NCBI GenBank assembly: GCA_963924555.1
Contig: OZ004592.1
Coordinates: 3,472,001 to 3,536,000, forward strand
Direction: 5' to 3'
Source: Crambe crambe
Taxonomy: Eukaryota; Porifera; Demospongiae; Poecilosclerida; Crambeidae
Length of the DNA: 64,000 bases
Of the stretch, positions 1,756 to 39,692 are shown one piece after another; the stretch's first letter is position 1; every line of letters starts with the position of its first letter. A program made the translations under genes and the position numbers. The notes below the pieces were generated by a model, which saw only the letters and a program-made list of their open reading frames with translations, did not search any database and had not been told where the DNA came from.

Positions 1756-3842
1756 ATGGAGATGAGTCGAGGAATTTTTATTGTTCTTGCTTATTGCTGC
1801 TTGTGTAGCTTTGCAAGTGCAGCAATACAGTTGATGGATTTCGGACCGAATTCAGATGATATGGAACTTTTAGATATATCTGCAGAGGTGCCATTGGAAA
1901 GGCCAGTTAGATACTTTGGTGAAGCTTTCTCTTCAGTATTTGTGAGTCATGTTTATTAATTATTAGCAAACTTGCAATGGAGTGCACTCTAGCTAATCGT
2001 GATGTTGGATGCTGATGACATTAAATACAGTTTTGTAGTGAACTCTTACTTATTTTTGCAGAAGGAAAAGGGTTGTATAGGCTTGTATAGTTCTTACACA
2101 GTCAAGAGGTCAATTGTGTGGTTATCTGTGGCCTCAAAACTATTCTGGTCCAGATGTAGTTCCAACTTGGATAATAGCATAATAGGGAAATAGCTAATAG
2201 GCTGTTGGCATTATGTTGTACCAGGTCCAGCATATGGAGAGTCTTCAGCAGCAGATATTTATTGTAGTACATAATTATTATGCATTATTAATTGATGTGG
2301 GAGTAATAGTTAATTAATAAGAGTATAGATTTGCTTCCCATGTTATTATCACCCTTCCTTATTTTTTTCTTAGGTGAATATCAATGGCTTTATTTCGTTT
2401 GGAAGAGATCAACCATTTCTATTTAATGAAAATTTGACAACTGCTAATATTCAAGTAATAGCACCTTTTTGGGCTGACATTGACACAAGTAATACTGGAG
2501 CTGTATATTACAGGTACTATATCACTGTAGTATGCCGTAGAGAGTCAAGTTCTCATAACTTGCATTTAGAAATGGAACCAATACCCACTGGTAAATGTTT
2601 TATCCATGAATATTATTTTGATAAAAGGGAAGTGTCCCAACTGTGCTCTAATGTAATAACCTCTTATTTTACTCTCTGTAGAGTGTCAAGTAACCTGACT
2701 GAGCTGAAAAATGTTAGCAGAATCATCAGGAGGTTTTTCCTGGAATCACGTAGATATACTCCTACTCATTTAGTAATAGTCACATGGGACAGAGTTGGTT
2801 CTTACAATAATGGAACTCATCAGGTAGTTAATAATTATAATTATTGAGAAAACATGTCAGGCATTTTGTTATTTTGTTGTGCAGAACACATTTCAGACCA
2901 TTTTGGCTACTGATGGAACTTCATCATATGCCATATTGTTGTATGATCACATCCAATGGTTCCAAGCTGACTTCAGAAGTGGAAGTGCAAGTGCAAGTGG
3001 AAGTGGAAGCGGTGGTGGTAGTAGTGCTCTTATGATAAGGTTGATAGTTTATAATAGAGTGCTGGGTCTGGGGTACATGAGTGTTATTGCTAGCTGACTT
3101 ACAGGTCAGAAACTTATGGCACAACCATGGTTAAGGGTGAGAAAGAATCCTTGCTTCTTCATCCTCAATTATTGTTCCTTCCAAAATTAAGGGGGTAACT
3201 CTTATTGGGTTATGATTCTCCAGAACATGAAACTAAGACACACAAACATGAACAATGTACAAAAAAATCCAGTCAACTAATCAATGTATAAGAAGTTTTC
3301 CTTGAGTGGATATCTTTTCCCCTTCATTTCACATGTACCATACTGCCCACTGTACTTGCATGTACTCCTGCTGCATACTTCGGATATGTGTAGCAAAACG
3401 CTATAAAAAAGAATTACTTCTTAATTATACTTCCTTCTTATGCATAAAGATCAAGGTACAAATTTCCTTCTTGTATTAATGTTAGCTACAAGATTTCCTT
3501 CATCTTTATCTTTTAGTCACAGATACTTGATTTCCACTTACTTCCGGTATGAGGAAATTGAGACTATTTGCAATAATTAGCATAAGATCACAATCCTGAT
3601 ACTGGTAGCTCTTAAAGGTCACAAACCTGTGGTTACACTTTGACCTCATGCAATAGTTGTGACTTTCCTTATATATACATGCAGTGAAAGTGGATTAACG
3701 GCAGAGGCTGGAGTGGTTAATGGTTCCAGCACTTACACCCTCCCAGGATCAGGGACCAGGAATATTACACTGTTAAATGTCACAAGTAATATAGGAGAAC
3801 AGGGAGCGTGGCTCTTCAGGATCACTAACTTTCTACCAGCTT
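1756..3842 (+). CDS. Receptor exons 1-5: signal peptide and NIDO domain
   Basis: Exons: 1756-1941, 2374-2513, 2682-2823, 2885-3039 and 3685-3842. Residues 1-23 form a signal peptide (hydrophobic core [14 protein letters not shown], then ASA). The NIDO domain follows, with the family landmarks [25 protein letters not shown] and [16 protein letters not shown] and the terminal pattern [17 protein letters not shown]...WLFRIT. NIDO domains occur in nidogen, tectorin, mucin-4 and mesh-like extracellular proteins. A Ser/Gly-rich run encoded at about 2979-3024 interrupts the domain before its last strands. The 3040-3684 intron holds no feature I recognise. Confidence 0.85.

Positions 3843-39692: not shown

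Follow-up and report, generated by a model that had tools for sequence, protein, structure and literature searches.

The usual plan of an adhesion GPCR has one GAIN domain, next to the membrane, which cuts itself at HL-S/T (the hyphen marks the cut) and keeps the Stachel, and removal of the N-terminal part bares this Stachel to the 7TM. In ADGRV1, Calx-beta repeats form the stalk and there is a single GAIN, while Latrophilin ADGRL3 and ADGRG2/G6 have one GAIN each and neither SRCR nor NIDO domains. Long rows of SRCR or EGF modules are familiar from DMBT1, CD163, other multi-SRCR scavenger proteins and fibrillin-type cbEGF rods, and these are not joined to a 7TM. The first part of one review places the GAIN just outside the membrane and calls ADGRV1 (VLGR1) the largest adhesion GPCR (PMC13197933). 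In sponges, the text of Krishnan et al. 2014 describes Aq712029 and Aq715659 of Amphimedon queenslandica as adhesion GPCRs that carry multiple copies of SRCR; of the set they belong to, at least 8 members have HRM and 28 of 40 have GPS (PMC4302439), and a Halichondria figure legend lists SR, NIDO, HormR and GAIN domains (PMC8242945). How adhesion GPCRs convert force or ligand binding into a signal is not yet settled, with most models built on a single membrane-side GAIN.

The window analyzed here is a 64-kb stretch (C15:3472001-3536000) from a 143-Mb assembly in 119 contigs. We judge it probable that a single gene in this window, called W below, encodes one giant adhesion GPCR with a NIDO tip, a stalk of SRCR and EGF domains, two putative self-cutting latches in series, and a 7TM. 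Like Aq712029 and Aq715659, W is a sponge adhesion GPCR with multiple SRCR repeats; unlike them, as far as their description in the text goes (figure 4 apart), it has a NIDO, a huge stalk, and a second GAIN-GPS. With ADGRV1 it shares a giant repetitive ectodomain that ends in GAIN-GPS-7TM, but the stalk is built of SRCR and EGF domains and there are two GAINs. Identity with ADGRV1 was rejected on the composition of the stalk, where Pfam found no Calx-beta in the 2,677 of 7,159 residues searched and the other stalk exons class as SRCR or EGF. The closest solved structures are ADGRL3 (6.2e-46) and ADGRG2 (4.3e-43) for GAIN2-7TM, and ADGRG2 again for GAIN1. The repeated SRCR modules, 30 domains in all, place W alongside DMBT1, CD163, and other multi-SRCR scavenger proteins, and a calcium-binding consensus opening 33 of its 43 EGF exons recalls fibrillin-type cbEGF rods.

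By class, W belongs with the adhesion GPCRs (class B2). It has a 7tm_2 core, a GAIN with GPS directly before TM1, which lies in the exon after GPS2, and, as sequence, a cut site and Stachel reading HL-TNFAVLV in all five genes compared. The single membrane-proximal GAIN of the usual plan is not what we find, as an extra GAIN-GPS lies upstream at 33244-34489; this second GAIN is a departure from the plan and not a family criterion. A secretin-type hormone receptor, with HRM followed by 7TM and no GAIN, was considered and rejected: the HRM-like domains are weak, and a GAIN stands in between.

SRCR-repeat adhesion GPCRs are already known from the Amphimedon text (PMC4302439), so the original prediction, that no receptor with the full combination had been described, is right only in part. 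It holds for the NIDO and the tandem GAIN, since the open-access literature text, figures apart, contained no description of NIDO with SRCR/EGF blocks or of tandem GAIN domains on one 7TM. Term searches of the first part of the review PMC13197933 and of PMC12716839 likewise gave no such description, and in the text of PMC5548486, which might have been a dual-GPS precedent, the two GPS are mutants and not separate domains. Two apparently cleavable GAINs in series on one 7TM, together with a stalk of higher-order repeats, look new.

The gene model began with a self-trained gene finder, whose first version over-split the locus into 297 exons and was discarded. The second version (136 exons) was curated by hand; 18 exons were dropped (e.g., 2102-2155, 15497-15533, and 20327-20359) and 14 were added or re-bounded, giving the 132-exon chain in Table 1, which has no internal stop. 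Its 131 introns comprise 130 GT-AG and 1 GC-AG (after 31555), with a median length of 65 nt and a maximum of 1,222. One weak donor, after 7513, was picked by homology, and the exon 3' ends at 8103 and 29705 are probably overlong. Because the gene finder fuses neighboring genes, its own single-gene call carries no weight: in control runs everything else on the plus strand of the window was absorbed into this gene, which grew to 169 exons and ended at 62493, and the minus strand came out as one 41-exon gene.

The domain anatomy proposed from the letters was borne out. The coordinates 1756-39692 were right, with consistent phases, and classing the exons gave 30 SRCR and 43 EGF exons for the predicted 30 or so SRCR and 43 EGF domains. 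Pfam searches of three spliced pieces (2,677 of 7,159 aa in total) put NIDO, SRCR (1.4e-106), EGF_CA (1e-29), both GPS motifs, and 7tm_2 above their cut-offs, with HRM (0.075) and Ig_3 below, and the two GAIN-GPS modules were matched by solved GAINs in PDB. For the Ig-like domain, the exons are conserved in relatives while the Pfam match fell short of its cut-off. The EGF stub, domain X, the higher-order repeats of the stalk, and the relatives were not part of the proposal. These searches, the GAIN and 7TM matches, and collinear relatives in the same genome and in a second sponge support the predicted adhesion-GPCR-like receptor in this domain order.

Table 1. Features of the window, in window coordinates (S, SRCR exon; E, EGF exon; the number after each letter is the exon count)
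Feature	Position	Strand	Basis
Whole predicted gene (132 exons, 7,159 aa)	1756-39692	+	Hand-curated exon chain (phases, splice sites)
Signal peptide and NIDO domain (5 exons)	1756-3842	+	Pfam NIDO 5.6e-44; signal peptide by eye and crude hydropathy scan
Stalk block 1, S2-E1-S3-E8	3897-8272	+	Exon classes, profile counts
Long intron (1,088 bp) containing fragments of repeats present elsewhere	8273-9360	+	Genome matches at a few other places
Stalk block 2, S4-E2-S3-E8	9361-15952	+	Exon classes, profiles; in part a recent copy of block 1
Stalk block 3, S3-E2-S3-E8	16008-22897	+	Exon classes, profiles
Longest intron (1,222 bp) with high-copy interspersed repeat	20700-21921	+	149 matches in own genome, itself included
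Stalk block 4, S3-E2-S3-E6	22979-28010	+	Exon classes, profiles
Stalk block 5, S3-E6-S3, HRM1 directly after	28097-32858	+	Exon classes, profiles
HRM1 (hormone-receptor-like domain)	32912-33135	+	Pfam HRM E 7.9e-4 on its own, below cut-off
GAIN domain 1	33244-34320	+	With GPS1 matches ADGRG2 (2.1e-11), ADGRG6, ADGRF1, and ADGRB3 chains
GPS1, Stachel-like end, within ectodomain	34377-34489	+	Pfam GPS 4e-13
EGF-like stub	34603-34666	+	Exon found in paralogs A, B, and C and in P, the relative in a second sponge
Ig-like domain (2 exons)	34751-35276	+	Pfam Ig_3 E 0.017, below cut-off; exons conserved in relatives
Domain X (2 exons), before HRM2	35341-35846	+	Aligned in W, B, and P (three genes, two sponges)
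HRM2	35938-36173	+	Aligned with HRM1
GAIN domain 2	36292-37550	+	PDB matches; 8-exon phase string as in module 1
GPS2, adjoining TM1	37608-37720	+	Pfam GPS 9.5e-14
7TM core (4 exons); C-tail, last residues LTRL	37967-39692	+	Pfam 7tm_2 1.2e-32
Protein-phosphatase-2C-like gene, downstream of receptor, other strand	40552-43107	-	By eye
561-aa ORF with ZU5-like stretch	43566-45248	+	By eye
Two similar multi-pass membrane ORFs, TMEM86-like	55852-56604, 57821-58549	-	By eye
Reverse-transcriptase-like fragment, between both TMEM86-like ORFs	56856-57440	+	ORF list
457-aa antisense ORF across the tandem repeats of the 641-aa ORF	60198-61568	-	ORF list
641-aa ORF of tandem repeats	60220-62142	+	ORF list

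The stalk is organized as higher-order repeats, in which groups of SRCR exons alternate with rows of EGF exons through five blocks. Four stretches in block 1 recur in block 2 at 97-99% identity, about 6.9 kb apart, which indicates recent copying of blocks. Profiles seeded from the Pfam-confirmed domains counted 30 SRCR and 45 EGF stretches in the protein, or 44 EGF once a hit at residues 6675-6694 (E 0.01, within GPS2) is dropped, and the reversed protein, used as the control, gave 0 SRCR and 1 EGF. With the calcium-binding EGF and hydroxylation consensus motifs taken in their familiar form, the latter occurs in 42 of the 43 EGF exons, and the EGF motifs fit a calcium-dependent stalk.

Behind the stalk lie two HRM-GAIN-GPS modules (32912-34489 and 35938-37720), each with the same string of eight exon phases (1-0, 0-0, 0-2, 2-0, 0-1, 1-0, 0-1, 1-0). 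The string was already present in the unconstrained gene-finder model, and its identity in both modules points to duplication of an eight-exon cassette. Inside one gene the two modules are 29-32% identical (four genes), less than the 41-46% between each W module and its copies on contig C20, so the duplication predates the split of W from the C20 genes. Taken together, these comparisons point to an old internal duplication as the probable source of the two modules. When HRM1 and HRM2 were searched alone, five of six sequences from three genes matched Pfam HRM at E <= 0.5, the best at 1.1e-4, and one member scored 20.2 bits against a cut-off of 26.2. Between the modules, the EGF-like stub had no Pfam match in the spliced piece searched, and domain X had none in Pfam or PDB at E <= 1.

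The ends of the two GPS motifs were compared across W, the paralogs A, B, and C on C20, and P, the relative in the second sponge. A 13-residue end of GPS1 is unchanged in all five genes, as is the GPS2 end HLTNFAVLV, while whole modules are down to 41-55% identity among W, B, and P. Since A, B, and C are recent copies, the five genes count as three lineages. Between A and B, dN/dS is 0.30 in module 1, from few changes, 0.47 in EGF-Ig-X, and 0.89 in module 2, and selection on module 2 is not supported by this test, in which the B-C values rest on very few changes. Values for W against A, B, or C were discarded as saturated (dS > 2) or undefined. At the other end of the protein, a PPH/PPQ-containing motif was noted by eye in the C-tail, once in W (window 39500-39692) and twice in B and P. 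The tails of W (LTRL) and P (DSTL) are PDZ-ligand-like, and that of B is not.

The paralogs form a cluster. Three dual-GPS 7TM loci on C20 alternate with three NIDO matches (among the matches listed), all on the minus strand, and among the 86 GPS matches in the genome only W and these three loci have two GPS within 4 kb on the same strand. A, B, and C stand in a row (C20:4536501-4870085) with identities of 91-99.7% across the HRM-GAIN modules and about 99% across TM1-5. The genome is in general rich in NIDO (159 matches) and GPS (86 matches), many of them in tandem clusters. Paralog B (C20:4667501-4729000) has the same NIDO-to-7TM order as W. Its rough model, which skips the first NIDO exons, runs to about 249 exons and about 13,000 aa, with profile counts of 63 SRCR and 108 EGF stretches; on this draft, B would to our knowledge be the largest GPCR known. 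When the order of stalk exons was compared between W (102) and B (223), the chain score was 112.8, against 47.7 +/- 3.2 and a maximum of 54.6 in 60 shuffles. B is collinear with block 5 from exon 50223 up to the SRCR ahead of its HRM1, and 180 of its 223 stalk exons have their best match within B itself. The comparison shows a stalk that has apparently evolved by changes in length of whole blocks. In the 25-exon comparisons of W with its paralogs and P, the phases of W were imposed, so agreement of phase there is not independent.

The relative in a second sponge came from a scan of prokaryote genomes with the TM2-TM4 exon, in which one of 100 pattern matches coded a relative. It lies in a metagenome-assembled genome (MAG) titled as a Cycloclasticus symbiont of Poecilosclerida sp. 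M, and as its contig carries intron-bearing animal DNA, it is evidently host-sponge DNA mis-binned in the symbiont MAG. One contig (C170) has an SRCR exon (E 5.6e-4, below the Pfam cut-off) followed in order by 16 exons from HRM1 into GAIN2, reading HRM1-GAIN1-GPS1-EGF stub-Ig-X-HRM2-GAIN2 start, and another (C161) has the other 9 exons in order, through to the tail. The order proposed for W therefore recurs from SRCR to 7TM in this Poecilosclerida sponge, with no NIDO among the incomplete pieces of this MAG. Module 1 of P is 54.5% identical to B and 42.4% to W; the W and B lines are thus probably older than the split between the two sponges. The same 2.3-Mb "bacterial" MAG, listed in GTDB, contains 92 SRCR matches, and host-sponge contigs in it include C120, C129, C147, C154, C170, C180, C219, and LWTN01000161.1. 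In P, the end of the GPS1 exon and its donor occur twice in tandem (piece L081, 1221-1450, by eye), either a small local duplication or an assembly effect.

Whether W is one gene can be judged from its junctions. The introns linking its major parts are short (54 bp from NIDO to the first SRCR and 53 bp from the last SRCR to HRM1), and the exons on either side of the two long introns have close neighbors as counterparts in B. Exons 8141 and 9361, on either side of 8273-9360, each have the best match of their row in B, at 17215 and 17411, which lie 70 bp apart, and those flanking 20700-21921 (20574 and 21922) have chain partners at 35332 and 35513, 61 bp apart, which rank third and second best. 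This arrangement speaks against tandem genes, in which a secreted NIDO-SRCR-EGF protein (1756-8272) would be followed by an SRCR-EGF adhesion GPCR encoded on its own, with its start at 9327. The 1,088-bp gap would suit such a division, as would the ATG at 9327 itself, whose frame runs through the acceptor at 9361 and whose very hydrophobic start outscores all others among the 306 candidates of a crude signal-peptide scan. However, that scan puts the start of the model itself (1756) only 25th, so it discriminates poorly and cannot decide between starts, and the hydrophobic stretch, to judge from its position 33 nt upstream, is probably what the pyrimidine tract of the acceptor happens to encode. 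The gap contains neither AATAAA nor ATTAAA and holds pieces of repeats present elsewhere, and 17411 has no in-frame ATG before it, like all but one (52750) of the nine B junctions examined. We consider two or more adjacent genes clearly unlikely.

A locus with several products is harder to set aside. Further candidate start ATGs lie at 12644 and 17175, with several more available via splicing, and an in-frame ATG precedes the exon at 34 of the 131 junctions in W. Because 104 of the 132 curated exons are phase 1-1, nearly every stalk exon could be skipped in frame, and alternative starts, alternative ends, and exon skipping could yield soluble stalks and shorter receptors beside the giant form. 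No sequence feature singles out particular isoforms, and we regard this outcome as quite possible while leaning away from it. An assembly artefact, in which collapsed or expanded repeats of a tandem array produce the long chain, might be suspected from the near-identical stretches of blocks 1 and 2 and from near-identical blocks in B too. Against it, 73 of 102 W stalk exons are closer to a B exon than to any exon of their own gene, stalk exon order agrees between W and B, and the stretch from HRM1 to the tail recurs in another species. Such an artefact is very improbable as the source of the chain; the number of blocks in W could be off by one.

If W is one receptor, its domain anatomy suggests how it might work, although the steps that follow go beyond anatomy and are what we infer from the known workings of adhesion GPCRs. 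Both GAIN domains would cut themselves, at HL-S in GAIN1 and HL-T in GAIN2, with the parts staying non-covalently joined, which would leave a receptor of three chains joined through two serial latches. The stalk would reach out and bind matrix, a neighboring cell, or microbes, and a pull or ligand engagement would open a latch, so that the receptor is probably gated by tension or ligand. Opening of latch 2 would expose TNFAVLV as a tethered agonist to the 7TM and produce a signal, while opening of latch 1 would shed the giant stalk and leave a shorter Ig-X-HRM-GAIN-7TM receptor. SRCR genes are associated with sponge responses to microbes in two studies (PMC6208332, PMC11229196), and microbes or matrix are accordingly likely candidates as ligands.

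GAIN1 may be a mere structural spacer that folds without cutting, or whose cutting has no role, since no membrane helix adjoins it and no 7TM comes straight after its Stachel. There are precedents for such a domain: B2 and B3 GAINs have been seen uncut, according to the first part of PMC13197933, and autoproteolysis is reported to be dispensable for the activity of fly Latrophilin/CIRL in the text of PMC5548486. The constancy of HL-S and its flanks (13 residues) in five genes of three lineages, set against modules that are otherwise 41-55% identical, argues the other way, as does the A-B dN/dS of module 1, few as the changes behind it are. The constancy of a cut site that no membrane helix follows suggests that the cutting itself matters, its simplest role being to release the giant stalk, and we find a passive spacer rather unlikely.

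A more speculative proposal, which we put forward tentatively and rate as somewhat less likely than the existence of several products, is that this demosponge family uses its two self-cut GAIN latches as a mechanical fuse. When pulled at a given force, one latch would let go of the stalk that binds microbes or matrix, and so either protect or reset the receptor; the second would fire the 7TM. For isolated GAIN domains, the first part of PMC13197933 gives about 95-160 pN. The stalk would quickly gain and lose blocks of three SRCR and following EGF exons (SRCR3-EGF), with no change to the double latch and the 7TM. The order in which the latches open separates a fuse from a two-step trigger. A natural two-GAIN receptor common to two sponges would offer a direct test of which latch is the first to open and of whether a GAIN can serve as a shedding device apart from a 7TM. 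It would also link scavenger-type (SRCR) recognition with a G-protein receptor in one of the early animal lineages.

Elsewhere on the contig that carries W, the stretch C15:6905001-6921000 holds another adhesion GPCR, with an N-terminal NIDO, a Calx-beta-like row, an HRM-like domain, a GAIN, one GPS (HLT), and a 7TM. Its NIDO, GPS, and 7TM were identified by matches and its other domains by eye, and the whole resembles an ADGRV1-like stalk placed behind a NIDO tip.
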